Of a stretch of DNA of 64,000 bases, positions 9,481 to 25,670 are shown piece by piece. The notes under the pieces were generated by a model, which saw nothing but the letters and a program-made list of their open reading frames with translations, had not been told where the DNA came from and did not search any database. Each line of letters starts with the position of its first letter. Position 1 is the stretch's first letter. The position numbers were made by a program, and so were the translations under genes. The stretch covers positions 1-64,000 of the forward strand of contig NZ_JAEAMR010000005.1 of assembly GCF_015999245.1 (NCBI RefSeq), read 5' to 3'. Source of the DNA: Streptomyces sp. AV19 (GTDB lineage Bacteria; Actinomycetota; Actinomycetes; Streptomycetales; Streptomycetaceae).

Positions 9481-11086
9481 AGCTTGTTCTTTTTCTTCTG
9501 GTCTCGAACGGTGTCCCGAACACGGTCACTCACCTGGGCATTCGCCGGACATGAGGGCGGCCTTCGTCTGATCCTGTGCTCCGTCACGAGGAGAACCAGT
9601 CGAAGGCCGTTGTCATGAGTGTGGTGTGCCCGGATGCCCGGCGGGAAGCGTTCGCGGAAGCGTCACGCTTCCGGGCAGAGTTCTACGAGTGTCTGACCGC
9701 CCGGCGTGACGAAATATTCGAACTGGCCGACGCGCTGTTGTGCGTCGACGGGCCGGTCACCTCACCGGTGGACCTGACGATGGTGCCCGAGCACCGGCGT
9801 GGGCACGGCGCGTTGTACGGAGCTCTCAGCCGGGGCCGGATCGATGTCGGGAGACTGCGGACCTTGCTCGCCGGGCTGCCGTTGCCTCGGTTCGAGGGCG
9901 GGCGCCTGGTGCTGGCGGTCGACGTGTCGCCGTGGCTGCGCTCGGACGCGCCGTGCTCGGCAGACCGGCTGTTCTGCCACGTCTACGGCCGGGCGAAGTC
10001 CGCCTCCCAGTTCATCCCGGGCTGGCCGTACTCCTTCGTCGCCGTCCTCGAACCGGGAGCCACCTCGTGGACCTCGATCCTGGACGTGGTCCGGCTCGGA
10101 CCCGAAGACGATGCGACCGCCATCACCGCCACCCAACTCCGAGCCGTGGCCGAACGGCTCATCTCAGCCGGCCAGTGGCGGCCCGGCGACCCGGACATCA
10201 CGATCGTCATGGACGCGGGTTACGACGTCACCCGCCTGGCCTGGGTCCTGCGGGACCTTCCTGTCGAGCTGGTCGGGCGGATCCGCAGTGACCGGGTGAT
10301 GCGGCTGCCGAAGCCCTCGCTCAAGGAGTACGCCCTGGCCTACCCCCAGGGCGGCAGGCCACCGAAGCACGGCAAGGAGTTCCGCTTCGCCCAACCCGAA
10401 ACCTGGCCCGAGGCGGCGATCACCACCGTCACCGACACCACCAACTACGGCAAGGCCGAGACCCAGGCGTGGGACCGGGTCCATCCGAGGCTGACCCACC
10501 GCTCGGCCTGGCTGGAGCACGACGGTGAACTCCCCATTGTCGAGGGCACCTTGGTCCGGTTGAAGGTCGAGCACCTCTCCAAGGAACGCGAGGCCCCACC
10601 GGTCTGGCTGTGGTCCTCCAAGACCGGCGCTACCCCGGCAGACGTGGATCTGTGGTGGCAGGTATTCCTCAGGAGATTCGATCTTGAGCACACCTTCAGG
10701 TTCACAAAGCAGACGCTCGGCTGGACCACCCCGAAGGTCCGTACCCCCGAGGCCGCGGACCGCTGGACGTGGCTCGTGGTCGTCGCCCACACCCAGCTCC
10801 GCCTCGCCCGACCGCTGGCCGCCGACCTCCGCCGGCCCTGGGAGAAGCCGACCAAGCCCGAACGCCTCACCCCGGCCCGGGTCCGCCGGGGGTTCAGGAA
10901 CATCCGAGCCCACCTGCTCTGTCCGGCCCGTGTTCCTCAACCACGCGGCACCGGCCCCGGGCGCCCGCCCGGCACCAAGAACAAGCACCGGGCACCCCGC
11001 TACGACGTCGGCAAAACCGTCAAACGCCCCGAGACCCTCAAGGCCATCGGCAGACCCGGCCGATCTTGGTAGAAAAAGAACAAGCT
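9481..11086 (+). mobile_element. Insertion sequence with 16-base terminal inverted repeats
   Basis: AGCTTGTTCTTTTTCT at 9481-9496 is exactly complemented at 11071-11086. These ends bracket one transposase gene, giving an element of about 1606 bases. The flanks (GCTA on the left, CAGG on the right) do not form a matching target duplication. The right end lies inside a Tn3-family transposase gene, while the left flank holds no continuation of that gene. This implies a deletion or rearrangement next to the element after insertion. Confidence 0.85.
9615..11072 (+). CDS. IS transposase (IS701/NF041680-like DDE)
   Basis: 485 residues from ATG 9615; GTG 9576 is an alternative 13 codons upstream. 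RNase-H-like DDE residues are plausible in LVLAVDVSPWLR (first Asp), ITIVMDAGYD (second Asp) and RRFDLEHTFRF (Glu). The final block FDLEHTFRFTKQTLGWTTPKVR is typical of IS701-like Streptomyces transposases. It fills the insertion sequence and runs to within 15 bases of the right inverted repeat. It appears intact, so the element may still be mobile. Confidence 0.85.
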   Translation: MSVVCPDARREAFAEASRFRAEFYECLTARRDEIFELADALLCVDGPVTSPVDLTMVPEHRRGHGALYGALSRGRIDVGRLRTLLAGLPLPRFEGGRLVLAVDVSPWLRSDAPCSADRLFCHVYGRAKSASQFIPGWPYSFVAVLEPGATSWTSILDVVRLGPEDDATAITATQLRAVAERLISAGQWRPGDPDITIVMDAGYDVTRLAWVLRDLPVELVGRIRSDRVMRLPKPSLKEYALAYPQGGRPPKHGKEFRFAQPETWPEAAITTVTDTTNYGKAETQAWDRVHPRLTHRSAWLEHDGELPIVEGTLVRLKVEHLSKEREAPPVWLWSSKTGATPADVDLWWQVFLRRFDLEHTFRFTKQTLGWTTPKVRTPEAADRWTWLVVVAHTQLRLARPLAADLRRPWEKPTKPERLTPARVRRGFRNIRAHLLCPARVPQPRGTGPGRPPGTKNKHRAPRYDVGKTVKRPETLKAIGRPGRSW

Positions 11087-12883
11087 CAGGATGTCGATGA
11101 GGGCGACGGTGCCCCACTTCTTGCGGATCGCCTTCTTCAGCCGGCGGAGGTTCTTCGGCTCCTTCTGCGGCTCCGGCTCGGTGAACTTGATCGCCCCGCT
11201 CTTGCGCTTGCCGTCGATGGTCACCCACGGCAGCTTCGGCAGGGCCGCATCCAGGGCGGACAGGGCCTGGCGCATCTCGTGCTTGAGCTGGGCGGTGAAG
11301 ACCTTGCCGTCGCGGGGCTTGTTGAGCTTCTCGTAGTACTCCGCGCGCCGGGTCTCGAAGTCGGTGGGCAGGTCCTCGTCGGGGTTGCGCCATTTGTCGG
11401 CGCCGACGACCCAGATCTCCTTGCAGCGCAGGCGGTCGCGCAGGGCCTGGAAGACGCACGCCTCGTACACCGTGCGCACGACGCGCTGGGGGCCCTTGGC
11501 GGGGGTGTGGACGGCGAACTCCCTCCAGTCCTTGCGTACGACGCCGTCGAGGGGGATGTCCGCGCCGATGGGCAGGTAGGTGGTGGAGGCGTCCTTGTGC
11601 TCCTCGATGAGCTTCAGCGCCTTGATGACGGGCTTGTGCGTGTCGTTGGAGGAGCGGAACTGAAGCACGCCGAGGAGCTTCATCAGCCCGCGCCGGTAGT
11701 GGTTGCTGTAGGAGGACTTGAACACCTCGCGCTTGGAGCGGGCGAAGGCCGCGTTGGTGGCCTTCATCTCGGCGACCAGGTCCTTGAGGGTCTTCTCCCC
11801 GCCGGCGGCCGGGAAGACCACCTCGCGTACGGAGCCGTCCGGGGCGCCCAGAGAGGCGGTGGCGATCTTTCCCAGCAGCCCGGCCTTGCCGCGCACGCGG
11901 GTGAACTCGGCGACGAATGCCTCGGTCACCTTCTTCTCCGCGCGCGCGTTGATGCGGTGCACGGTGGAGTTCAGCAGCTCTACCAGGGTGTCGGTGATCT
12001 CGCGCTGCCGCTGGAAGAGCAGCGCGGCCAGCAGTACCTGCCGCACCGCGGGGGTAAAGCGCCGCAGGTGGCTGGGCGAGGAGGCTGACGCGCGGGCCCG
12101 CCAGGCGCTCACCACCTGTACGCCGATCCCGGCGAACGCCTTCTCCGGGACAGCCACGGCGCGGACCTGCAAGAGCTTGGCGATCTCGTCCAGCAGCGAG
12201 GCGAGGCTGACGTTGCCCGGGTGGGCCTTGATCTGCGCGAGCACCGCCTCCACCGGGTCGTCCTCGTCCTGGTCCTCGTCGGTCTCGGCGAGGTCGTCCT
12301 CCGCCGCTTCTGCTCCAGGCAGGCCGGTGAAAACGAGCGCGTCCAAGCGGCGCGGGCAGCCTTCAGCCTCGGCCAGGTGGGCGGCGACCTCGGCGATGGC
12401 CCGCTCGTCGGCCTGGTGCAGCGCGGAGCGGACGATCGCGGCGGCCTGGTCGGGGGTGGGCGGCTCGATCAGCTTTTCGCGCATCTGCCGGTACAGCTCG
12501 GCCCGGACCTGCTCAGGCCGGCGCTCGTCGTGCCAGATCTCGTCGACCAGGGCAGAGGCGAGCTTGATCTGGTCGGTGACCGAGCACTCGTGCCAGCCGG
12601 TCAGCTCCCGGATCTCGGTGCGGTGCCGCTTGGCCGTACGCGAGGTGAAGTCGTACAGCGCCATGTCGGCCGCCGGGATGCCGACCTGGTTGGCCACGTG
12701 GGCGACCGCGTCCGCGGGCAGCTCGATGCGGGTCTTGGGAAAGCGGCCCCGGAAGGGCAGGAACTTCAGCTGGACGGCGAAGCCCAGGCGGGTGGCCCCG
12801 CTCTTGTTCCGCAGCCAGTCCAGCTCGTCGCCGATCAGCGTGAAGTGCTCGACCACCGCGTCCAGCCCAAGATCCCGCCCCAC
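11087..12883 (-). pseudogene. tnpA: Tn3-family transposase, C-terminus lost
   Basis: 599 codons from GTG 12883; the open frame extends to 13000. The N-terminal DUF4158-like domain reads DELDWLRNKSGATRLGFAVQLKFLPF and continues with LTGWHECS. The central region and the start of the Tn3 DDE domain (IKALKLIEEHKDASTTYL, then WGTVALIDIL) follow. Tn3 transposases are close to 950-1000 residues; this one stops where the insertion sequence begins, before the last catalytic residues. The missing part is not on the other side of the insertion sequence. The copy should be inactive. I could not identify its terminal repeats, and the resolvase at 20385 may or may not come from the same transposon. Confidence 0.85.
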
Positions 12884-12960
12884 CGGGCCCGCCCCTCTCC
12901 GTGCCGTCCGCCGCACCCGGAGCCGGCGGCACGTTGCCGTCGGCGTGCCGTGTGCGGCGT

Positions 12961-13440
12961 TCACTCGTTCAGCCCAACGAGGTGATCCACTTCCGGGCAA
13001 CGGGCGGACATGATCAGAGATGAAGGGGGCCTTCTTCCGGGTCGTGACCGGCCGTCCCCTACTCGGCGAGCGTGTCCGTGCTGGTCAGGGGGCCGACGGC
13101 GCTCTGTACCGGCGAGTTCGGTGTAACGCCTTCGCGGAGGGGCTTCCCCGGACCGGCGCGCGCGGTGTGCCGCGACGCGGCAGGCCGGCCGGTCGAAGAT
13201 GGCGTCGCGGCGGTGTCCGCGGCCTGGCAGAAAGCGGCGGCCGCACACGGGGCAGCGCACGGCGATCGAGTCCGGGCCGTTGAGGATCATGTGCAACCCG
13301 ATCGCAGCTCCCGCGCCCCACCGGCGCCGGTCACGTCGCGCCCGTCCCGCACATGAGGGGCCGCAGTACACCGCGTCCGCGCGGGCTGCCGCCCGGATCG
13401 GTTCCCGGCACCACCGGCACCGGCGCACTCGACCGGCCAT
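12961..13440 (-). CDS. Zinc-finger-like protein at end of glycosyltransferase operon
   Basis: 159 residues from ATG 13440, four bases after the stop of the kinase gene, so probably the last gene of that operon. CRWC...YCGPSCAGRARRDRRRW and CPVCGRRF form two Cys clusters surrounded by Arg, suggesting a small nucleic-acid-binding zinc protein. The last 40 residues are low-complexity and may be read-through into transposon-derived sequence. No family is assigned. Confidence 0.5.
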   Translation of the reverse strand: MAGRVRRCRWCREPIRAAARADAVYCGPSCAGRARRDRRRWGAGAAIGLHMILNGPDSIAVRCPVCGRRFLPGRGHRRDAIFDRPACRVAAHRARRSGEAPPRRRYTELAGTERRRPPDQHGHARRVGDGRSRPGRRPPSSLIMSARCPEVDHLVGLNE

Positions 13441-13444
13441 GTCC

Positions 13445-13999
13445 TCAGCGTACGCCGGGCTGCCGGTCCCGCTCGGTGTCCAGGACGGCGGCGCAGGTCT
13501 GGGCCGGGTCGCCGGTGTAGGTGATCGCCTGCTCGTGGGGGGCCGGGGGCTCGAAGCGGGCGAAGAAGTCGTCCAGCGCCTCGGGGCTGACTATGAGCGC
13601 GTTGGCGTCCTCACGCCGGTTGCGGTCGGCCAGGCGCCGCAGGAGCTCGTCCCGGTCGACCGGCAGGTAGACAAGCCGCCACCGACCGCCGACGGCCTCG
13701 ACGAGCTTCTTCCAGGCGTCGCGGTCCGCCTGGAGCCACAGGCCGTGGTCCAGGACGACGTCGTCCCCGGCCGCCAGGTGCTCGGCGAGCTGTTGGCGGA
13801 TCGCGTCGACGACGGGGCGTTCGCGCTCGAAGTAGGTGTCCTCGGGGTAGTCGACGCCGTAGCGGCCGTGGAGGCGATGGACCTCCTCGTCCACGGACAA
13901 CCGGACCATCCCCCGGTCGGCGAGCGCCTGGGCGAGGGAGGTCTTGCCGGAGCCGGTGATGCCCACCAGCAGCACCGCCACCGGCTCGCGCGCGATCAC
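13445..13999 (-). CDS. P-loop kinase (AAA_33 / zeta-like)
   Basis: 184 residues from GTG 13999, with GGGGAGAGG upstream; GTG 14005 is too close to that site. Walker A is GITGSGKTS at about residues 12-20. SVDEEVHRLHG carries the conserved Asp seen in polynucleotide-, chloramphenicol- and zeta-type kinases. VVLDHGLW is the Walker B-like strand, and RRLADRNRRE forms the Arg lid. Members phosphorylate small molecules, sugars or nucleic acid ends. The gene lies 56 bases after a glycosyltransferase in the same direction. Its substrate is unknown; a role in the same pathway as the transferases is inferred. Confidence 0.75.
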   Translation of the reverse strand: MIAREPVAVLLVGITGSGKTSLAQALADRGMVRLSVDEEVHRLHGRYGVDYPEDTYFERERPVVDAIRQQLAEHLAAGDDVVLDHGLWLQADRDAWKKLVEAVGGRWRLVYLPVDRDELLRRLADRNRREDANALIVSPEALDDFFARFEPPAPHEQAITYTGDPAQTCAAVLDTERDRQPGVR

Positions 14000-14055
14000 G
14001 TCCACCTCTCCCCTCTCAGCCGGGCCTGGCCTCCATTCTCGCCGACCAGGGCCGC

Positions 14056-14922
14056 CTACCGGCGGGTGTTCGCGGCAGGTGGGCGCCAGCGGGTGACGAT
14101 GGTCCGGGCCTCGTCCGCCCACCCGGCCGGCAGGCCGTCGAGGGTGACGCGGCGGAAGCCGAGGCGGGGGTCGGCGACGTCGATCCGGCCGTGGTGCCGG
14201 TCGATGTGCTCCAGCAGGCGCCCGGCCTCGTCCCGTACGGCCGGGGTGTGCTCGGCCCAGGCGCCGGAGGTGAAGTTCTCCACCCTGCGCCGCAGGTCGT
14301 CCAGGACGCCCGCGCGCCACTTGAAGTGGTGCACGCAGGCGAGGGTGTCGGGGTCGGGCTTGTGGCCGGGGGCCCGGTGGTTGCCGGAGGCCACGGCGGT
14401 GCCGGACCGTGCGAGGACGATCTTGCGGGGGTCGCCGTGCAGGAGCCGGTGGGTGAGGTGTCCGCCGAGCGGGAACGCACGGTCCAGCCCGGTCACCGGC
14501 CGCCAGTGGGCCAGGCGCCCGTCGGGGGCGACGCGGTCGAGCATCAGCCCGCCCACCACCGGCCGCCCCGCCGTCTCCGCCGCGGCGATCACCTCCGTGA
14601 GTGGGGCGGGGTAGGTGTGGAGCTCGTCGGAGTCGGCGAGGAGGTGCCAGCCGGGCCCGGCCTGCTCGCGCAGGGTGTCGCGGAGGCCGGTGTTGGTGTG
14701 CTCGTGCCACGGACCGGTAGTGACCGTCGCCGGGGGGACGCCGAGCTCGTGGGCGGTCGCCAGCAGCTGGACCCGCCAGGCGGCGGGGACGTGGTCAGGG
14801 AAGTGGAAGGCGAGGCGGAAGTCGGTGATGCCGAGCGCGCGGTAGTGGGCGGTCCAGGCGGTCAGCAGGGCCGGTTCCACGGGGCCGATCACCGCGACCA
14901 ACACGGGCGGGGCGGGCGTCAT
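14056..14922 (-). CDS. Glycosyltransferase, GT-A fold (family 2 / Glyco_tranf_2_4-like)
   Basis: 288 residues from ATG 14922, whose ATGA overlaps the preceding stop. The opening PVLVAVIGPVEPALLTAWTAHYRALGI is the typical strand-and-helix start of these enzymes. LLADSDELHTYP holds the acidic metal-binding motif at about residue 100. Later KIVLARSGTAVASGNHRAPGH and CVHHFKWR match the family's C-terminal pattern. It would transfer a sugar from a nucleotide donor. There is no signal peptide or membrane span, so it acts in the cytoplasm. It is the fourth gene of a tightly overlapping glycosyltransferase operon. Confidence 0.75.
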   Translation of the reverse strand: MTPAPPVLVAVIGPVEPALLTAWTAHYRALGITDFRLAFHFPDHVPAAWRVQLLATAHELGVPPATVTTGPWHEHTNTGLRDTLREQAGPGWHLLADSDELHTYPAPLTEVIAAAETAGRPVVGGLMLDRVAPDGRLAHWRPVTGLDRAFPLGGHLTHRLLHGDPRKIVLARSGTAVASGNHRAPGHKPDPDTLACVHHFKWRAGVLDDLRRRVENFTSGAWAEHTPAVRDEAGRLLEHIDRHHGRIDVADPRLGFRRVTLDGLPAGWADEARTIVTRWRPPAANTRR

Positions 14923-16148
14923 CGCAGCTCCTCGATGAGGCGGGTGTAGGTGGTGGTGAGGAAGGCGGCCTGCTCGGCCGCCGTGGCCATGCCCACCGCG
15001 GCCGGGGCCTCCGGCCCGGGACGCTCGGGTGGCTCGGAGGCGAGGCTGTCGAGGGCCGCGGCGAGGGCGCTGGGGCCTCCGGCCGGGAACAGCCGGGCCC
15101 ACGGCTGCCCGGCGATCCTGCTGGTGAGGGCGGGGTCGTGGTCGGAGAGGATCAGGGGGACGCCGAGGCGGGCGGCGTCCATGACCAGCCCGGATTCCTT
15201 GCCGACCCCGGGGCGGCGGGTGACCAGGGCTGCGTCGGCGGCGGCGTAGACGAGGCGGAGGACCTGCTCGCCGACCGGGCCGGGCACCGTGTGCAGGCGG
15301 ACCTGCGGGAGCTGGTGCCAGCGGGCCAGCGTCTCCTCGTCGAGCGGGGTGCCGGTGACCACCAGGTGCAGCGGCCGGGTGAGCCGGGCGAGGGCGGCGT
15401 CGACGGTGGCGATGTCCTTGTAGGGCCACCAGCCGCCGACCAGGCACACCGCCGCCGCGTCGTCGGGGATGCCGAACGCGGTGCGGGCGCCGTCCCGCTC
15501 GGCCCCGGTGAGCCGGTGCCCATCGTCGACCGCGAAGGCCCGTACGGCCCCGGCCAGGCCGGGGAAGGCGCCGGCGAACTGGTCCCGGACGGCCTTCGTC
15601 GGGTACAGCGCGATCACCCGCCGCTCGCCGCGGCGGGCGAGCCGCCCGAGCAGCCGCACCGGCGCGTCCTCGGTGGTGATGGCCTCGTGGATGAATCGCA
15701 GGTGGGGTTGTCCGCCGAGGAGGGCGGTGGCGCCGTGCAGGGCCTCGCTCGCCGTGAGCACCACCACCGCCCCCGGCTCCCGGACCAGATGCCGGGCGGT
15801 CCGCAGGCACGCGGCCTCGGTCAGGCACCGGGCGATCAGCGTGACCTGGTGCGGGGATCGCCGCAGCGCGAGCGGCCACCGCCGGGAGGCGAACAGCCGC
15901 TGTCCGGCCGCTGAGACAGCGCTCGCCCACTGGGCGGCGGCCAGCAGCACCGCTGCAACCAGCCCCTGGGCGCCAGTGATGAGTCGGGCGCCAACCTGGC
16001 GGAGCGGAGCGGGGTCGGCGGCGCCGTACGGGGCGATGACCACGCTGCCGCCCCGTGCGGCGGCGAGCGCGGAGAGGGTGCGCGGGTGGTGCCCGCCGAG
16101 CCGGTGGGCACCCGGCTCGATGAGCACCAGCGGCTGCTGGCCGGTCAT
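14919..16148 (-). CDS. Glycosyltransferase, GT-B fold (GT4-like)
   Basis: 409 residues from ATG 16148, overlapping the upstream stop as ATGA; an upstream in-frame start would only extend into the previous gene. The N-terminal half (LIEPGAHRLGGHHPRTLSAL) is the acceptor domain. The C-terminal half shows CLVGGWWPYKDIATVDAAL, then VGKESGLVMDAARLGVPLIL, the usual donor-nucleotide-binding block of GT4 enzymes with its conserved Glu. A hydrophobic stretch in the first third could associate with the membrane. The acceptor is unknown. Confidence 0.75.
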   Translation of the reverse strand: MTGQQPLVLIEPGAHRLGGHHPRTLSALAAARGGSVVIAPYGAADPAPLRQVGARLITGAQGLVAAVLLAAAQWASAVSAAGQRLFASRRWPLALRRSPHQVTLIARCLTEAACLRTARHLVREPGAVVVLTASEALHGATALLGGQPHLRFIHEAITTEDAPVRLLGRLARRGERRVIALYPTKAVRDQFAGAFPGLAGAVRAFAVDDGHRLTGAERDGARTAFGIPDDAAAVCLVGGWWPYKDIATVDAALARLTRPLHLVVTGTPLDEETLARWHQLPQVRLHTVPGPVGEQVLRLVYAAADAALVTRRPGVGKESGLVMDAARLGVPLILSDHDPALTSRIAGQPWARLFPAGGPSALAAALDSLASEPPERPGPEAPAAVGMATAAEQAAFLTTTYTRLIEELR

Positions 16149-16849
16149 CCGGCGACCGCCTGCTCGCCGTGCGCCGCCGTGAACCGGTCCTTCAGCCACG
16201 CGGGATCGTTGAGCGCGTCGAACCGGGCCGTGTCCCGTGCGGCCTCACGGGCGAAGGCGATGCCGTCGCGGGCGCCAGCCGCCGCGTACGAGGCGAAGTC
16301 GCCCTCGCGGCTGGTCGTCCAGGCGTCGAGGCGGGCCTGGGCGTCGGCATCGGCCATGCCGTACTCGCTGCCGCGCGCGAGCATCGCGCACTCCCTGAAA
16401 CCCGCCTTCCAGGCATGGTACGGACTCTGGTTGAACCGGGTCGTTCCGGCCGTGTCCTCGCAGAACTCCACCTTGCCCGGGAGCGCGGCGAGGACGTCGA
16501 CGGCCTCGCCCATCTCCCGCAGCGCGTCCCGCCGGATCAGCTTCAAGCCGCCGTAGCCGTAGGTCAGCCCGTTGACCGGGTTGACCGCCCGCCACACCCG
16601 CATCGAGATCCCGCCGCCCAGCGGCTCGACGTCGGCGGCGGGGAAGCGGGTGTCGATGGAGAAGTCGCCGTCGGCGAGGAAGAACTGCTCGGTGTCGGCC
16701 AGCTCGGCCGTCAGCCGGTAGGCCCGGCGCATGCCCCGTACGCCGTGCAGGCGCTTGACCGTGCCGCCCAGCACCCGGCCGAGCCGCCGGTGCAGGGCGT
16801 TGGCCATCGGCTCGTCGTAGGACAGCAGGACCGCGTCGAACCCGGTCAT
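16145..16849 (-). CDS. Phage-type glycosyltransferase-like protein
   Basis: 234 residues from ATG 16849, overlapping both neighbours by four bases. The landmarks SYDEPMA, FFLADGDFSID (Asp-x-Asp), VWRAVNPVNGLTYGYGGLKL, FNQSPYHAWKAGFRECAML and the closing LNDPAWLKDRF follow, as I remember it, a conserved protein of tailed phages of T4 type annotated glycosyltransferase or hypothetical. That resemblance is strong along the whole length. Seeing it in a bacterial operon with three other transferases is unusual. Modification of nucleic acid or of a cell-surface glycan are both possible; the sequence alone does not decide. Confidence 0.7.
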   Translation of the reverse strand: MTGFDAVLLSYDEPMANALHRRLGRVLGGTVKRLHGVRGMRRAYRLTAELADTEQFFLADGDFSIDTRFPAADVEPLGGGISMRVWRAVNPVNGLTYGYGGLKLIRRDALREMGEAVDVLAALPGKVEFCEDTAGTTRFNQSPYHAWKAGFRECAMLARGSEYGMADADAQARLDAWTTSREGDFASYAAAGARDGIAFAREAARDTARFDALNDPAWLKDRFTAAHGEQAVAG

Positions 16850-18000
16850 GCGATCGCCTCCAGATAGCGGGCGGCCACGGCGGCCGGGGCGAAGTCGGCG
16901 GTGGAGGCGTGGGCGCGCTTGGCGTGGACCCGGTAGAACTCCGCGTCGGTGGCCAGCCGGCGGGCGATCTGGACGGCCTGGTCGTCGGTGTCGAAGAGCA
17001 GGTCGTCGTCGATGTGCTCGGCCAGCCATCCGGTGCGCGGGGCGAGGACCGGCAGGCCCATCCCCTGGCAGTCCACCACCGACATCGACCACGGGCACCC
17101 GGGCCGGAAGGGCGCGATCCCGAAGTGGGCGCCAGCGAGCAGGTTCCGGTAGCGCACCCGGTCACCGCGGTCCGAGGCGATCGTGACGCCGTCGAGGGCG
17201 GCGAGTTCGTCGCGGTGGCGTTCGGGGCTGGGGTCGAGGCGGACGCGCTCGGGGCTGCGGTTGCCGAACAGATCCATCACCGTCAGCTCCACCGGCGCCT
17301 CGGCGGTCAGGTGCCGGGCGAGGGCGGTGAAGCGGGCGGTGCCGTAGTGCGCGTAGAGGCGGTGGTTGTAGACGCCCGTCGCGCGGCCGTCCGGCGGCAG
17401 GGTGTCGGCGGGGTCGCGGACCAGGCGCTCGTCCCTGGGGGCAGGCACGACGTGCAGCTTCTCGTCGAGGTCGACGCCCATGCGGTCGGCTGCCGCCGTG
17501 GTCCAGGACGCGGCCGTGGCGGAGTGGACGAGGACGCGGTCGCAGGCGGCGAGGCCGGCGGCGAAGGACAGCAGCACACTCCGGCCGAGGCCGCCGTCGT
17601 CGAGGGACGGGTCGAGTGCGAGGTCGCCGTCGTCGGTGAAGGAGAAGGGCAGGTAGTGGCAGTACCCGGCGATCCGCGTGTCGGTTCCGGCTTCGAGGAG
17701 GGCGGCGCGGATCGCGGGGGCGGCCTCGATCTGGTTGGCCACCACCACCTCGGGCCGGACCCGGCGGACGAGCGCGACGAGGGCGTCGAGGCCGGGGTCG
17801 AGGCGGGCCCGGTACTTCGTGGACGGCGAGAGCGTGGGGGCGAAGCCCACCCGCTCGTCCCCGGCGGGGGCCGGGGCGGCCACGGTCACGTCCACCCCGG
17901 CGTCGGCCAGGGCCGGGGTGAGCAGGTCGGCGAAGGTGAAGCCGGAGTCGGCCGAGAGCCGTCCGGGGTTGGAGATGTTCAGCAGGTACAGCAGCCGCAC
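16846..18000 (-). CDS. Glycosyltransferase, GT4-like, first gene of operon
   Basis: 384 residues from GTG 18000, with GGAGGGAGA just upstream. LLYLLNISNPGRLSADSGF opens the GT-B N-domain. VVVANQIEAAPAIRAAL and VLVHSATAASW follow. GVYNHRLYAHYGTARF recalls the Asn-His-Arg start of the donor domain of tRNA-queuosine mannosyltransferase-like enzymes. The end is FRPGCPWSMSVVDCQGMGLPVLAP. The gene is transcribed away from the XRE regulator at 18148 across a 147-base region with repeats. The product probably loads sugar on a cytoplasmic acceptor that the next three enzymes extend or also modify. Confidence 0.75.
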   Translation of the reverse strand: MRLLYLLNISNPGRLSADSGFTFADLLTPALADAGVDVTVAAPAPAGDERVGFAPTLSPSTKYRARLDPGLDALVALVRRVRPEVVVANQIEAAPAIRAALLEAGTDTRIAGYCHYLPFSFTDDGDLALDPSLDDGGLGRSVLLSFAAGLAACDRVLVHSATAASWTTAAADRMGVDLDEKLHVVPAPRDERLVRDPADTLPPDGRATGVYNHRLYAHYGTARFTALARHLTAEAPVELTVMDLFGNRSPERVRLDPSPERHRDELAALDGVTIASDRGDRVRYRNLLAGAHFGIAPFRPGCPWSMSVVDCQGMGLPVLAPRTGWLAEHIDDDLLFDTDDQAVQIARRLATDAEFYRVHAKRAHASTADFAPAAVAARYLEAIA

Positions 18001-18081
18001 GGCGGTCTCCCTCCCGCAGGGCCCGGGTCGTCCAGGCCGGTTGAAGGGAAGGAAACCGGGGTCAATGACGGTGACGGGATG

Positions 18082-18112
18082 GTGAACTGGCCTCACTCAC
18101 GGTTCACTCACG
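18082..18112. promoter_or_regulatory. Operator candidate between GT operon and XRE/deformylase operon
   Basis: TCACTCACG occurs twice with an 11-base period (18093-18101 and 18104-18112). GTGAAC at 18082-18087 is the complement of GTTCAC at 18102-18107. These repeats lie in the 147 bases between divergent starts (18000 and 18148), a natural place for the XRE protein to act on both operons. Confidence 0.5.
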
Positions 18113-18147
18113 TTCGTCATCAACCAGCCAGCCGGGCGGGGGCCTTG

Positions 18148-19125
18148 ATGGAGGAACAGCACGATGCGATGACCACAGAGCAGGCGGCCGAGGCGTTCGC
18201 GGCCGAGACCGCCTACTGGCGCGAGGTGCGGGGCCTGTCCAAGCGGGCCCTGGCCTGCGCGATGGGCTTTGATCCGTCGTACGTCAGCCATGTGGAGTCC
18301 GGGCGGCACAAGCCGACGGAGGACTTCGCCCGCCGCGCGGACGAGGCGCTGGGCGCCGGCAAGGCCATCTGGAAGCGGTGGTGCGACTACGAGGCGGCCA
18401 AGGCCCGAGGCGGCCGAGCGGCAGCGCCGCCGGCGCCGCGCGCGGTGGGCGAGCAGCCGTACGCGACCGGCTCCGCGCTCGTCGTCGAGCACGACGCCGC
18501 TCGGCTCGACTACGACGGTCGCCTGTACCGGCTGACGATGCGCCGGCTTCTGCGGAACACCGGCTCCGAGCCGGTCACCCGCTACCTCATCCGCATCAGC
18601 GTCGACCGCTACCCCGGCGAGCCCGAGCGGTCCAACGCCCACTACCGCACCCACCCACTGACCTGGGACGAGCTCGCGCTGAGTGCGACGTGCCGGGGCG
18701 AGGCGATGCGCTGGGAGGCCAAGCACGACCGCGACGCCTTCAAAGAGGTGTGGCTGCTGTTCGAAAACAACCAAGGCCGCTTCCCGCTGTACCCCGGCGA
18801 GTCGGTGTGGATCGAGTACGCCTACTCGGTGGGGGACGAGAAGTGGGGCCGGTGGTTCCAGCGGGCCGTACGGCTGCCCACCGAGCACCTGGAGGTCCAG
18901 CTCGCCTTCCCCGCCGCCCTCGACCCGGTCGTGTGGGGCACCGAGACCTCCATGACCGCCGAGGCGTCCCCGCTGCGGACCGCCCCCGTGCGGCGGGACG
19001 AGAACGGGACGCGGTTGTTCTCCTGGACGACCTCCACACCGCCCCTGCACGCTCGGTACCGTTTGGAGTGGCGCTTCCGAGCGGCCCGGCCCGAACCCCA
19101 GACGAGCGACAGGGAGCTGACGTGA
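18148..19125 (+). CDS. XRE-type regulator with large C-terminal beta-rich domain
   Basis: 325 residues from ATG 18148; ATG 18169 is possible. Residues about 15-75 form a Cro/CI helix-turn-helix (VRGLSKRALACAMGFDPSYVSHVESGRHKP). From about residue 105 a roughly 215-residue domain rich in Tyr, Trp and alternating strands follows (LDYDGRLYRLTMRRLL, then YPGESVWIEYAYSVGDEKWGRWFQ). It reads like a beta-sandwich ligand sensor of unknown type. The stop overlaps the deformylase start (GTGA). Regulation of the divergent glycosyltransferase operon is inferred from position. Confidence 0.75.
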   Translation: MEEQHDAMTTEQAAEAFAAETAYWREVRGLSKRALACAMGFDPSYVSHVESGRHKPTEDFARRADEALGAGKAIWKRWCDYEAAKARGGRAAAPPAPRAVGEQPYATGSALVVEHDAARLDYDGRLYRLTMRRLLRNTGSEPVTRYLIRISVDRYPGEPERSNAHYRTHPLTWDELALSATCRGEAMRWEAKHDRDAFKEVWLLFENNQGRFPLYPGESVWIEYAYSVGDEKWGRWFQRAVRLPTEHLEVQLAFPAALDPVVWGTETSMTAEASPLRTAPVRRDENGTRLFSWTTSTPPLHARYRLEWRFRAARPEPQTSDRELT

Positions 19126-19691
19126 CGACGGTGCGGCCCAGCGAGCAGATGCGAGACCTCGGCGTCGTGCAGTACGGCGCCCCCGTCCTCGCCGACGTCG
19201 CCCGGCCCTTCGCCCTGCCCGCGGAGAAGGACACCGCCGAGCAGACCGTCGAGACGCTGTTCGCGGCGATGGAGCGGATCGCGCGCGTGCACCCCTTCGC
19301 CAAGGGCATGGGTATCGCGGCCCCGCAGATCGGCATCGGCCGGGCGGCGGCCGTCGTCCAGCCCGCCGACCCCGCCGCCGCGGCGATCGTCCTGCTCAAC
19401 CCGCGCATCACCGCCCGCTCGCAGGAGATGGACGAGCAGTTCGAGGGGTGCCTGTCGTTCTTCGACGTCCGCGGCATGGTTCCTCGCCCCCTGACGATCA
19501 CGGTGGTGACCACCGCCCTGGATGGCACCGAGGTGACCGCGGTGTACGAGCGCGGCCTCGCCCGGCTCGTCGCCCACGAGATCGACCACCTCGACGGCCT
19601 GCTCTACACCGCCCGCATGCGGCCCGGCGTCGAGCCGATCCCGGTGGAGGAGTACCGGCAGACCGGCCGTTCGTGGGCGTACGACCAGTAG
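19122..19691 (+). CDS. def: Peptide deformylase
   Basis: 189 residues from GTG 19122. All three family motifs are present: GMGIAAPQIG (motif 1), EGCLSF (motif 2, metal-ligand Cys) and HEIDHLDG (motif 3, two metal His and the catalytic Glu). Deformylases remove the formyl group from N-terminal Met. A second, non-housekeeping copy on an accessory locus may protect against deformylase inhibitors or act on a dedicated peptide substrate. Translational coupling to the XRE regulator is the notable point. The length is normal and all catalytic residues are intact, so activity is expected. Confidence 0.9.
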   Translation: MTTVRPSEQMRDLGVVQYGAPVLADVARPFALPAEKDTAEQTVETLFAAMERIARVHPFAKGMGIAAPQIGIGRAAAVVQPADPAAAAIVLLNPRITARSQEMDEQFEGCLSFFDVRGMVPRPLTITVVTTALDGTEVTAVYERGLARLVAHEIDHLDGLLYTARMRPGVEPIPVEEYRQTGRSWAYDQ

Positions 19692-19737
19692 CCCCGTCGC
19701 CCGTGCCCTGTGCCCGACTGGGCTCGTTGCACCTTTT

Positions 19738-20250
19738 GTGACCGACGAGCTGAGCGCCACAGCACAGCGCACCTGGTCGTTCTCCACCATCGCCACTCCG
19801 CGGATGCGGGTCGCTGAAGTCGTCCACCAGCCCGGCCCCGACGCCTACAGCGACCTCGTCCGTGACGCGCTGGCCTCCGGGTTCGCCTGGGGCAGCGGGA
19901 CGATGCCCGTGGTGACCGCCGCCGTGCACGTGGTCGGCGGCTGCTTCCACGCGCTGACGCTGACCGGCACCACCACCGTGGTGGCGCCCGCCGAGCCGGT
20001 GCCGCTGTCCTCGGCCTGGCTGAAGGCCGCTCTGGACTCGCTGGAGGCGGTGGTCATGGTGGTGCCGCCCGGCACCTTCGACGAGGAGATGCCCGAGCAG
20101 GCCGACCGCACCGACGACCCCGGCGCCTGCGCCGCCCACCGCACGAAGCTCAACGCCGTACGGACCGGCGGCCACCTGCTGTGGGCCGCCGCCCGCATCC
20201 GGCTCGACCAGCCACCGGTCGGTGCGTCAGCCGCCGGGCCGGGGGTGTGA
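19738..20250 (+). CDS. Hypothetical 170-residue protein
   Basis: 170 residues from GTG 19738, 46 bases after the deformylase gene and in the same direction. It has alternating strands and helices (RMRVAEVVHQPGPDAYSDLVRDALASGFAWG, then VHVVGGCFHALTLTGTTTVVAP). LDSLEAVVMVVPPGTFDEEMPEQ follows. No signal peptide or catalytic motif is recognised. It may belong to the same operon. The following 134 bases (20251-20384) hold nothing I can support. Confidence 0.5.
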   Translation: MTDELSATAQRTWSFSTIATPRMRVAEVVHQPGPDAYSDLVRDALASGFAWGSGTMPVVTAAVHVVGGCFHALTLTGTTTVVAPAEPVPLSSAWLKAALDSLEAVVMVVPPGTFDEEMPEQADRTDDPGACAAHRTKLNAVRTGGHLLWAAARIRLDQPPVGASAAGPGV

Positions 20251-20384: not shown

Positions 20385-21053
20385 TCACCGGTTGCCGCCT
20401 TCGAGCTGGGCGGGGATGCGGCTGGCCCGCAGCTCACGCAGGTCGGGGATGTGGTTGTAGAGCGTGCCCGGGGAGACGCCGAGCATCTTGGCGATCGCGG
20501 TGATGGAGTGCTCGGGGTTGGGCAGCAGGTCCCGGGCCATGTTCAGGATCTTCTCGTCGACCACGGTGGGCCGGCCGCCGACCTTGCCGCGGGCCCGGGC
20601 GGCGGCCAGGCCCTCGCGGGTGCCGGAGACGATGAGTTCGCGGATGAACTCCGCCAGGGCGGCGAAGACGTGGAAGACGAGCCGGCCGCCGGGGGTGGTG
20701 GTGTCGAGGTTCTCGTGCAGCGAGGTGAAGCCGATCTCGCGGCGGCGGAGCTCGGCCACCATGTTGATCAGGTCCTGGAGGGAGCGGCCGTAGCGGTCGA
20801 GGGCGGGGACCACCAAGGTGTCGCCGGCGTCGAGGAAGGCGTGGCATGCCTTGAGCTCGGGGCGGAGGTCGTTCTTGCCGGACTTCTTGTCCGCGAAGAT
20901 CTTCCGGCACCCGGCCGCCTTGAGGGCGTCGAGCTGCCGGTCGAGTTTCTGTCCGCCGGTGGACACGCGTGCGTATCCGATGCGGATCTCGGTGCGGACG
21001 GCAGGCTCGGCGGCCAGCAGTTCGAGAGCGTCAGGCTCAAGGGGCGTGTTCAC
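20385..21053 (-). CDS. Serine recombinase (resolvase/invertase)
   Basis: 222 residues from ATG 21053. GYARVSTGGQKLDRQLDAL carries the catalytic Ser. DKKSGKNDLRPEL and VVPALDRYGRSLQDL are the resolvase core. LAEFIRELIVSGTREGLAAARARGKVGGRPT leads to a C-terminal helix-turn-helix (SITAIAKMLGVSPGTLYNHI). The length is normal for a Tn3-type resolvase or DNA invertase. It is probably a remnant of a transposon, since the neighbouring DDE transposase is truncated. It should be active if expressed. Confidence 0.9.
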   Translation of the reverse strand: MNTPLEPDALELLAAEPAVRTEIRIGYARVSTGGQKLDRQLDALKAAGCRKIFADKKSGKNDLRPELKACHAFLDAGDTLVVPALDRYGRSLQDLINMVAELRRREIGFTSLHENLDTTTPGGRLVFHVFAALAEFIRELIVSGTREGLAAARARGKVGGRPTVVDEKILNMARDLLPNPEHSITAIAKMLGVSPGTLYNHIPDLRELRASRIPAQLEGGNR

Positions 21054-24343: not shown

Positions 24344-24646
24344 GTGGAACCCATTGGTACGAAGCTGAGGCCCCATTCATGGGACAGCGAACAGTCCGTG
24401 GCTTACGAGGCCGCCGTAGAGGCGGCCAATGCTGTGGTCGGCGCGCTTAGCGCGCTCATCGCGCGGGAGGAAGCGAAGCCGGCGGCCGAGCGGGACGAGG
24501 GCGCGATCAGGATGTGGGAGGACGAGCAGGCCCGATGCCACCGAGTGCGTGAGCAGCTGGACCCTGCCAACACCTCCGAGGTTGCCCGCCTCCGGAGGCA
24601 CTTTGCCGAGCGTGCCCAGGTGCTGCGGGGGCCGGCCGGTGACTGA
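24344..24646 (+). CDS. Probable antitoxin to the zeta toxin
   Basis: 100 residues from GTG 24344, with a strong CGGAGGA ribosome site. It is entirely helical and charged (AVEAANAVVGALSALIAREEAKPAAERDEGAIRMWEDEQARCHRVREQL). Epsilon-type antitoxins are short helical bundles that bury the zeta active site. The gene overlaps the zeta gene by eight bases, the expected order and coupling. The sequence itself is not recognisably epsilon, so the assignment rests on context. Confidence 0.6.
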   Translation: MEPIGTKLRPHSWDSEQSVAYEAAVEAANAVVGALSALIAREEAKPAAERDEGAIRMWEDEQARCHRVREQLDPANTSEVARLRRHFAERAQVLRGPAGD

Positions 24647-25670
24647 TCCCGAGGCCCTGCGGTACAAGCTTTCGGAGGCCGGGAGCCGCCGGATTTTCGA
24701 GCGACGCATCGTGCCTCAACTCCTGTCAGCGGCGAAGCCGCAACAAGAGCCCGTAGCCGTCTTCCTGGTAGGTCAGCCTGGTGCCGGCAAGACCCGAGTG
24801 TCGCACTTGCTGGCCGAGCGCCTCAACGAGCGTGGCGGGTTCGCCGACATCGACAGCGACTTGTACAAGCCGTATCACCCCGAGTACGCCCGCCTTCTCG
24901 CCGAAGATGACCGGCTGATGGCCCTCTACACCGGCCCCGACGGGCGGGAGTGGATGCGGCAGGCGCAACAGTACGTACGCGAGAACCGGATCAATGCCTT
25001 GGTCCAGGAGATAGCAGACCGAGGCGAAGAGTTCATGGCGGCCCAGATGCGGGCCTACCGGGAAGCTGGATTCCGGGTGGAAGTCGTCGCCTTGGCGGTC
25101 TCGGAACCTCTGTCGTTGCAAGGAATTCTGAACCGCTACCACGAGCAGGTGAAAGAGCGCGGCAGCGGACGCCTGACGGTGCCCGAGAAGGCCGCTGCCT
25201 CCTACGTCGGCATCGTGCGCACAGCTGCCATGATCGATGCCGAAGCCGCCGCCGATTACGTCGCCGTCTACCGCCGCGGCGAAGCCGAGCCCCGGTACAG
25301 TAACAGCCGGGGAACCGACGGGCAGTGGCGACGGCCGCCGCAGTTCCGACAAGCGATCGAGACGGAACGGGCCCGGCCGTGGACGCCGGTGGAAACTCGC
25401 GACTTCCTCACCGTACAGGCGAAGCTGTACCGCGAGATGAGCGCGGATTTCCGACCGCAGATCCAACGAATCGACACCCTCGCCCGGTCCTTGCTGGACG
25501 CCACAGCCTCCCGGCCAACTCACCAGGTTGACGAGCAGGCAGCGGAGGCCACCCGCCTCGCACGCCTGGCCTTCCCAGGCTCTGCTGAACAAGCGCTCCA
25601 CGACCCTCCGGCTACCACGTCGCAACAGCCGCCCACAGACCGTGAAGCCCGACCGGAAATCGAGCGCTGA
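24639..25670 (+). CDS. Zeta-family toxin kinase
   Basis: 343 residues from GTG 24639. Walker A is FLVGQPGAGKTRV. ADIDSDLYKPYHPEY matches the zeta motif with catalytic Asp and the substrate-side residues. VEVVALAVSEPLSLQGILNRYHEQ and GRLTVPEKAAASYVGIVRT match the later helices and the conserved Arg. Zeta toxins phosphorylate UDP-N-acetylglucosamine and block cell-wall synthesis. The chain is longer than the minimal domain and ends in a tail (AAEATRLARLAFPGSAEQAL). That tail is also found near the end of the mobilisation protein at 30531. Plasmid addiction is the default role; delivery through the secretion system is a speculative alternative. Confidence 0.85.
   Translation: MTDPEALRYKLSEAGSRRIFERRIVPQLLSAAKPQQEPVAVFLVGQPGAGKTRVSHLLAERLNERGGFADIDSDLYKPYHPEYARLLAEDDRLMALYTGPDGREWMRQAQQYVRENRINALVQEIADRGEEFMAAQMRAYREAGFRVEVVALAVSEPLSLQGILNRYHEQVKERGSGRLTVPEKAAASYVGIVRTAAMIDAEAAADYVAVYRRGEAEPRYSNSRGTDGQWRRPPQFRQAIETERARPWTPVETRDFLTVQAKLYREMSADFRPQIQRIDTLARSLLDATASRPTHQVDEQAAEATRLARLAFPGSAEQALHDPPATTSQQPPTDREARPEIER

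Follow-up and report, generated by a model that had tools for sequence, protein, structure and literature searches.

A divergent glycosyltransferase and deformylase locus

Why would a run of glycosyltransferase genes face a transcriptional regulator that is itself coupled to a peptide deformylase (PDF)? The question is raised by positions 13445 to 20250 of a 64,000-nucleotide stretch of Streptomyces sp. AV19 (contig NZ_JAEAMR010000005.1, positions 1 to 64,000; hereafter the window). A sequence-only reading of this DNA had described four glycosyltransferase (GT) genes overlapping by four bases each, followed by a P-loop kinase gene and facing an XRE regulator gene coupled to a complete deformylase gene, an arrangement that direct reading of the sequence and Pfam confirmed. 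We give about an even chance to the interpretation that this is a horizontally spread cassette for the biosynthesis of a glycoside or glycan, with a divergent regulator of its own composed of a helix-turn-helix (HTH) domain, an M1 aminopeptidase N-terminal-like (M1N-like) domain and a PDF, the PDF half serving as sensor.

Gene boundaries were read directly from the sequence and then checked against Pfam and NCBIfam. On the (−) strand the operon begins with GT-D (16846–18000), a GT4-type glycosyltransferase with an NHRLYxHYG motif. It continues with GT-C (16145–16849), a predicted GT-A-fold transferase of 234 aa with DGD and NPVNGL-YGYGG-KL motifs; GT-B (14919–16148), a putative divergent glycosyltransferase assigned weakly, on a motif seen by eye; and GT-A (14056–14922), which resembles family 2 glycosyltransferases (Glyco_tranf_2_4). 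These genes overlap by 4 bp at 14919–14922, 16145–16148 and 16846–16849. After a gap of 53 bp comes the P-loop kinase gene (13445–14002; AAA_33/Zeta/CPT-like, Pfam AAA_33 E 4e-23), here the last gene of the operon. On the (+) strand the XRE gene (18148–19125) overlaps the PDF gene (19122–19691) by 4 bp at 19122–19125. All reading frames across both gene sets are intact.

The cassette recurs in other genomes

We found GT-C in 19 of 246 genomes of the genus and in 3 of 296 of the class, the source genome being counted in both. In total, 66 loci in named genomes were collected from Streptomyces, Kitasatospora, Actinacidiphila, Nocardia, Nocardiopsis, Actinocorallia and one Dyadobacter; loci L024–L041 and L045–L110 share source genomes and are not independent. 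Genes in relatives were called with our own codon-usage script rather than a standard predictor, and product names given there without a Pfam call are our reading. The order GT-D, GT-C, GT-B, GT-A, kinase, with a divergent XRE-PDF pair, recurs in extended loci. All 55 loci that have the four GTs keep both their order and their strand, a recurrence that places the arrangement beyond chance. Among the 60 loci with at least 1.2 kb before GT-D, the XRE gene is divergent and adjacent in 50, and a PDF gene adjoins it in 49 of those 50, so the neighbours do occur together in other genomes. In 55 loci the kinase gene and GT-A are no more than 400 bp apart, sharing a strand in 23 and lying on opposite strands in 32. 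Across 69 loci, matches were obtained for GT-A in 60, GT-B in 62 and GT-D in 62.

The cassette, or parts of it, was present on plasmids of S. rochei, S. enissocaesilis and S. cellulosae. A survey of the flanks covered 58 of the 66 genome loci (L053, L074, L076, L077 and L107–L110 were left out) and listed 22 recurrent families. Six of these, identified by scanning one example of each, are FkbM methyltransferase (28 loci), MobA-type relaxase (20), NUDIX (17), DUF3631 (9), DUF2637 (9) and integrase (4). The FkbM methyltransferase gene is thus the commonest extra gene of the cassette in relatives; no FkbM gene follows the kinase gene in the window locus. Mobile elements of actinomycetes typically carry genes of the relaxase, integrase, DUF3631 and DUF2637 kinds, and to judge from these neighbours the cassette often lies on DNA that appears element-like.

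The shared promoter carries a conserved site

The divergent promoter shared by GT-D and the XRE gene contains an operator-like site, TGGTGAACTGGCCTCACTCACGGTTCACTC, at 18080–18109. An alignment of 24 hand-picked promoters gave the pattern TGRTGAAC-N5-TCACTCACGGTTCA. In the promoters of all 50 loci with an adjacent XRE gene, the 14-bp core TCACTCACGGTTCA is exact in 38, keeps 13 of its 14 bases in 9, 12 in 2 and 7 in 1; at least 13 bases are therefore kept in 47 of the 50, where shuffled promoters reach at most 10. The full site of the window has no second copy in the 7.5 Mb genome at up to two mismatches, and a reversed-pattern control gave none. The conserved core and the unique site bear out the earlier suggestion that the cassette has a dedicated regulator. 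A related, weaker site precedes 12 of 18 other XRE-PDF modules, whose promoters lie outside the cassette set.

The XRE protein has a predicted M1N-like domain and its partner is an intact deformylase

The N-terminal part of the XRE protein is an XRE-type HTH by its HTH_31 match (E 2e-11; 44.3 bits against a cutoff of 27). The structure model (pLDDT 84.6) places a beta domain behind it, at residues 107–311. By fold comparison (VIA Z scores) this C-terminal domain aligned with 6ezn_A, from yeast oligosaccharyltransferase (15.5), with 3kd4 (13.7) and with leukotriene A4 hydrolase (12.7), as well as with a human oligosaccharyltransferase subunit, over a Z range of 15.5 to about 12. We take the yeast and human chain to be Ost1/ribophorin I. 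By prediction, then, the domain folds like the N-terminal domain of an M1 aminopeptidase. The protein itself is not an M1 aminopeptidase, lacking both HExxH and any M1 match in Pfam. A pYEATS identity, our first guess for this domain, was dropped after the fold search.

The partner protein is a deformylase by Pfam (Pep_deformylase, E 3e-34; 118 bits against a cutoff of 22.8), and falls below the cutoffs of the NCBIfam deformylase models (107.9 against 125; 96.8 against 103.95). The motifs G-x-AAPQ, EGCLS and HExDH are invariant in all 16 aligned PDFs. All 16 also have Arg at the position of R97 of V. cholerae Def1, R117 in the window PDF, by our own matching of the register to Def1 through EGCLS. 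The Tyr that marks Def2-type resistance at this position is absent, a mark that covers one type of resistance only.

The genome holds other PDFs (five matches, one of them partial). In a tree that left out two of them, L173 (no motif frame found by our script) and L175 (the partial match), a 100/98 branch separates the XRE-linked PDFs from two other PDFs of the genome. Cassette-linked PDFs form one group (86/86 support) that also holds the PDFs of the cassette-free loci L022, L154 and L157. In L157, an open reading frame (ORF) that looks YcaO-like to the eye precedes the module by a few kb. A Streptomyces albireticuli cassette (L046/L155) carries another PDF copy (63%) next to the first, whose final part (residues 156–189) matches again several kb away.

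The XRE-PDF module faces other operons

An order-level search with the XRE protein matched 244 of 245 genomes, mostly through the HTH alone, and we used the 18 genomes with E ≤ 1e-90. The GT cassette was present in 8 of these and absent from 10 within the 15–20 kb fetched; a PDF adjoins the XRE gene in all 18. In many relatives the two are fused into a protein of about 490–520 aa, and elsewhere they are coupled genes.

Of 20 plasmid records that contain the XRE domain we viewed 11, and nine regions carried XRE-PDF without the GT cassette. A biosynthesis-like divergent operon lies opposite in seven of the nine, with D-Ala ligase, AMP-binding/ketosynthase, preQ0 (twice), radical SAM, sugar dehydratase or nonribosomal peptide synthetase (NRPS) genes. 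Combinations found opposite XRE-PDF include D-Ala ligase with threonine dehydratase and M55 peptidase; radical SAM/SPASM with creatininase and arylsulfotransferase; dTDP-glucose dehydratase with ATP-grasp and aminotransferase; methyltransferase with AMP-binding and ketosynthase; and, on one plasmid, NRPS with racemase genes. Several loci have preQ0/deazaguanine genes together with other nucleoside-type or GT genes. Ten IMG/VR contigs (L257–L266) were found to carry the module, with XRE and PDF side by side in each. Four of them have FtsK-like matches, three over the family cutoff, and some of these contigs may therefore be integrative elements rather than phages. We treat XRE-PDF as a regulator module of operons and elements and not as part of one pathway.

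In L142, L143 and L146 the module faces QueC/QueD/QueE-like genes followed by GT-like and reverse-transcriptase-like genes. RVT_1 and DUF6884 were confirmed by Pfam in L142 only; in L143 a FolE-like gene and a short ORF resembling FGE-sulfatase were picked out by eye. These operons are possibly a deazaguanine or a diversity-generating system. On two Streptomyces plasmids (L160, L165) a fused XRE-PDF gene lies a few kb from type I-E CRISPR genes.

The glycosyltransferases and their viral relatives

Family support is uneven across the four putative GTs. GT-D is the only one over its Pfam cutoff (PF13439, E 1e-7). GT-A scores 20.2 bits against a cutoff of 27.5 (PF13704, E 9e-4), its Dyadobacter relative just passing at 27.9. 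GT-B had no Pfam match and a chance-level NCBIfam glycosyltransferase match (E 0.083). For GT-C, which matched no Pfam or NCBIfam family, the assignment comes from the predicted fold: the model (pLDDT 89.4) resembles GT-A-fold transferases at modest TM-scores, with mannosyltransferase 6yv7 the best Foldseek match (E 7e-5, TMq 0.44). Sequence searches of solved structures returned no match for GT-D or the kinase; those returned for GT-C were at chance level (best E 0.23). GT-D had been likened to tRNA-queuosine mannosyltransferases for its NHR element. The element is indeed present, but in Pfam and NCBIfam only general GT4 models match the protein; a model of the QTMAN N-domain presumably exists in Pfam.

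A profile search with GT-C found three viral contigs (L042–L044), and a wider profile found at least 593 viral-contig stretches; the 80 that we retained are 30–37% identical over nearly the full length. The L042 relative is 37% identical over GT-C residues 4–230, and its contig also encodes T4 gp23 (PF07068, E 5e-87). We detected gp23 on 5 of 19 GT-C-bearing viral records tested, namely one of the three first contigs and 4 of 16 long contigs from the wider set; its absence elsewhere says little because many viral records are fragments. The first and third residues of DGD are kept in all 17 rows of the GT-C alignment, and NGL-YGYGG-KL and WKAGFRE are kept in its full-length viral rows, of which there are two. 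Judged by these alignments, the GT-C family is shared with some uncultivated T4-type contigs, with homology over the full length. The relationship to phages suggested earlier for the 234-residue transferase thus holds for uncultivated contigs but not for cultivated phages, where BLAST searches with GT-C and three viral members gave no real match (a lone hit had E = 7). In PHROGs, GT-C and its relatives matched nothing above chance level. The family, plentiful in uncultivated viral contigs, thus went unmatched among the cultivated-phage records and PHROGs that were searched.

The viral genes have neighbours of a different kind. Our survey covered 82 of the 83 viral loci at hand (L042–L044, L177–L256), in which a relative of one radical SAM protein of L042 lies nearby in 50 and a relative of one GT8-like protein in 40, both names being our reading. 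None of the 82 loci matched GT-D, GT-B, the kinase, XRE or PDF, and GT-A was matched only through a fused query. The viral GT-C proteins (L042, L177–L256) thus resemble that of the window in the DGD and YGYGG-K motifs of the two full-length rows aligned, and differ in the genes around them.

One locus lies in another phylum. In Dyadobacter sp. CY347 (L109), GT-D, again with the NHRLYxHYG motif, adjoins a fusion of GT-C and GT-A, and a PDF gene lies about 4 kb from the GTs, overlapping a gene for a protein with two transmembrane segments (2TM). The locus shares GT-D, GT-C, GT-A and PDF with the window; it differs in having no GT-B, kinase or XRE match and in adding radical SAM, GT2, phosphatase and methyltransferase-like genes. 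Its PDF falls on the XRE-linked side of the tree on a very long, unsure branch. The soluble part of the 2TM protein resembles the XRE domain by eye, and no relatives of the protein were found in 199 other genomes of the family.

Proposed function and its alternatives

How might these parts work together? The four putative GTs and the P-loop kinase, joined elsewhere often by an FkbM methyltransferase, would build and decorate a small glycoside, oligosaccharide or glycan. The XRE protein would bind the shared promoter at the TCACTCAC site, most likely as a repressor of both operons. The M1N-like domain and the coupled or fused PDF would form the sensing half. What they read would most plausibly be the formylated or free N-termini of peptides, or else a ligand that binds PDF, whereupon repression would be released. 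PDF removes the formyl group and M1 enzymes bind free N-termini. We prefer the sensing of peptide ends to a resistance role mainly because PDF and M1-N domains act elsewhere in N-terminal protein processing, and we likewise think it more of a sensor than a housekeeping enzyme. Such a module would link an essential, translation-coupled enzyme to the transcriptional control of small mobile biosynthetic operons. Together with the TCACTCAC site it would offer a sequence handle with which to find or induce cryptic clusters in actinomycetes. A GT family plentiful in uncultivated viral contigs is also tied to a bacterial pathway open to experiment in laboratory strains of Streptomyces.

Several observations weigh against this proposal. 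The XRE gene is not adjacent in 10 of the 60 loci (all five from Nocardiopsis, three Streptomyces contigs, Dyadobacter and Actinocorallia), so the regulator is not obligatory. One promoter of the 50, that of L063, has no core, and its XRE match is partial. Outside the cassette set, 6 of the 18 promoters have no related site, and only 4 of the 12 related sites are individually convincing (at most 1 in 200 shuffles as good), two of which, L154 and L157, belong to the cassette-linked clade; the support for that clade is only 86/86. In two of the nine plasmid regions (L022, L163) no biosynthetic operon lies beside XRE-PDF, which in one of them faces a MazF-type toxin gene, and none was recognised beside the module in L141, L148, L154 or viral-classed contigs. 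Control of biosynthesis is therefore not universal, and some copies may be regulators of elements. The M1-N likeness is one of fold, as Pfam finds no M1 domain in the XRE protein, and the Dyadobacter 2TM protein was not significant as a homologue of the XRE domain (hhalign E 0.36 and 0.051). The cassette itself encodes no scaffold-making enzyme, transporter or polymerase.

One alternative is that the GTs belong to a surface-glycan locus, making a capsule, teichoic acid or glycolipid decoration, with XRE-PDF as a mobile-element regulator beside it. FkbM methyltransferases and GTs of such types are common in surface-glycan loci, the cassette is frequently on element-like DNA, and XRE-PDF occurs there also without biosynthetic neighbours. 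We nevertheless think this unlikely, given a divergent, adjacent XRE gene in most loci and a conserved promoter core; nor did the cassette genes, or the six recurrent flank families scanned of the 22 listed, include a flippase, a polymerase, a lipid-carrier transferase or an exporter. Modification of nucleic acids, with the GTs glycosylating a tRNA or DNA base, seems very unlikely. The abundance of GT-C relatives in viral contigs, the NHR element of GT-D, and the QueC/QueD/QueE/FolE-like genes of some sister XRE-PDF loci, one with a DUF6884 match, would fit it. However, the window proteins matched no known DNA or tRNA glycosylation family in Pfam, NCBIfam or PHROGs, so the nucleic-acid target once suggested for the locus is not supported. 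Near viral GT-C we recognised radical SAM and GT8-like genes rather than genes for base synthesis, and no deazaguanine gene was recognised among the 22 flank families listed for the cassette.

It is also quite unlikely, in our view, that the PDF is a self-resistance copy and that the cassette, or other operons facing XRE-PDF, make a PDF inhibitor. The idea has precedents: a Vibrio NRPS/polyketide synthase (PKS) cluster makes a PDF inhibitor and its PDF is described as an antidote (PMC12690207), and the lydiamycin cluster contains the PDF gene lydA (PMC12130866). Like many XRE-PDF loci, each has an accessory PDF gene beside biosynthetic genes, and the presence of other PDFs in the AV19 genome also fits. 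But the operons opposite XRE-PDF look chemically unrelated, many relatives have the PDF fused to a DNA-binding protein, and resistant accessory PDFs are marked by Tyr in place of R97 of Def1 (PMC12690207). The Arg retained in all 16 PDFs therefore speaks weakly against resistance. The Vibrio PDF is described as an antidote within an NRPS/PKS cluster, whereas the window PDF keeps the Arg and is joined to a DNA-binding regulator.

The sensor reading can be carried further. The HTH/M1N-like/PDF proteins could be transcription factors of one family with N-formyl peptides as their signal, the M1N-like domain binding the N-terminus and the PDF reading or removing the formyl group, so that products of foreign or stressed translation would induce mobile biosynthetic operons, the GT cassette among them, against competitors or phages. 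We regard this version as improbable; if true, it would be a bacterial counterpart of the formyl-peptide receptors.

Relation to known systems

Pairs of an XRE repressor and an ImmA/IrrE metalloprotease are known from integrative elements. XRE-PDF resembles them in coupling an XRE gene to the gene of a metal-dependent hydrolase on mobile elements, and differs in its deformylase partner, often fused, in its M1-N-like predicted fold and in often facing biosynthetic operons. XRE-DUF397 pairs of Streptomyces, which have reportedly been linked to antibiotic production and differentiation, likewise consist of an XRE gene and an adjacent partner, the partner being DUF397 and not a deformylase. XRE/metal-dependent hydrolase pairs and PDFs linked to biosynthetic clusters are thus known, and their combination with each other and with a GT cassette was not found described: we found no account of an XRE-PDF regulator or of the GT cassette in the open-access literature, subscription papers being mostly outside that search.

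Neighbouring features of the window

The sequence-only reading had drawn the unit somewhat wider. The GTs, kinase, XRE and PDF recur, but the zinc-ribbon-like ORF downstream of the kinase gene (12961–13440, (−) strand) was matched in none of the 69 loci. The ORF after the PDF gene (19738–20250, (+) strand), which has no match in Pfam or NCBIfam, was matched in one (L103). Both therefore lie outside the conserved unit. In PADLOC, with a library from 2023, generic P-loop and HTH models were the only ones matched by proteins of the window; a weak match to mad2 (E 6e-6) came from the FkbM protein of L048.

Because a Tn3-type transposase ORF and a resolvase gene stand on either side of the locus, a transposon carrying all of it was considered, and was rejected when no long terminal inverted repeats were found. 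The transposase gene (11000–13000, a remnant) has no match in the 22 or in the 69 related loci. The resolvase (20385–21053) has one weak match among the 22 (L021, 35%) and one among the wider 69 (L045, 40%). By eye, an insertion sequence-like transposase ORF (9576–11072) abuts and seemingly truncates the Tn3-type transposase gene, and an ORF at 24429–25670 on the (+) strand, with a P-loop, looks like a zeta-toxin-type kinase.

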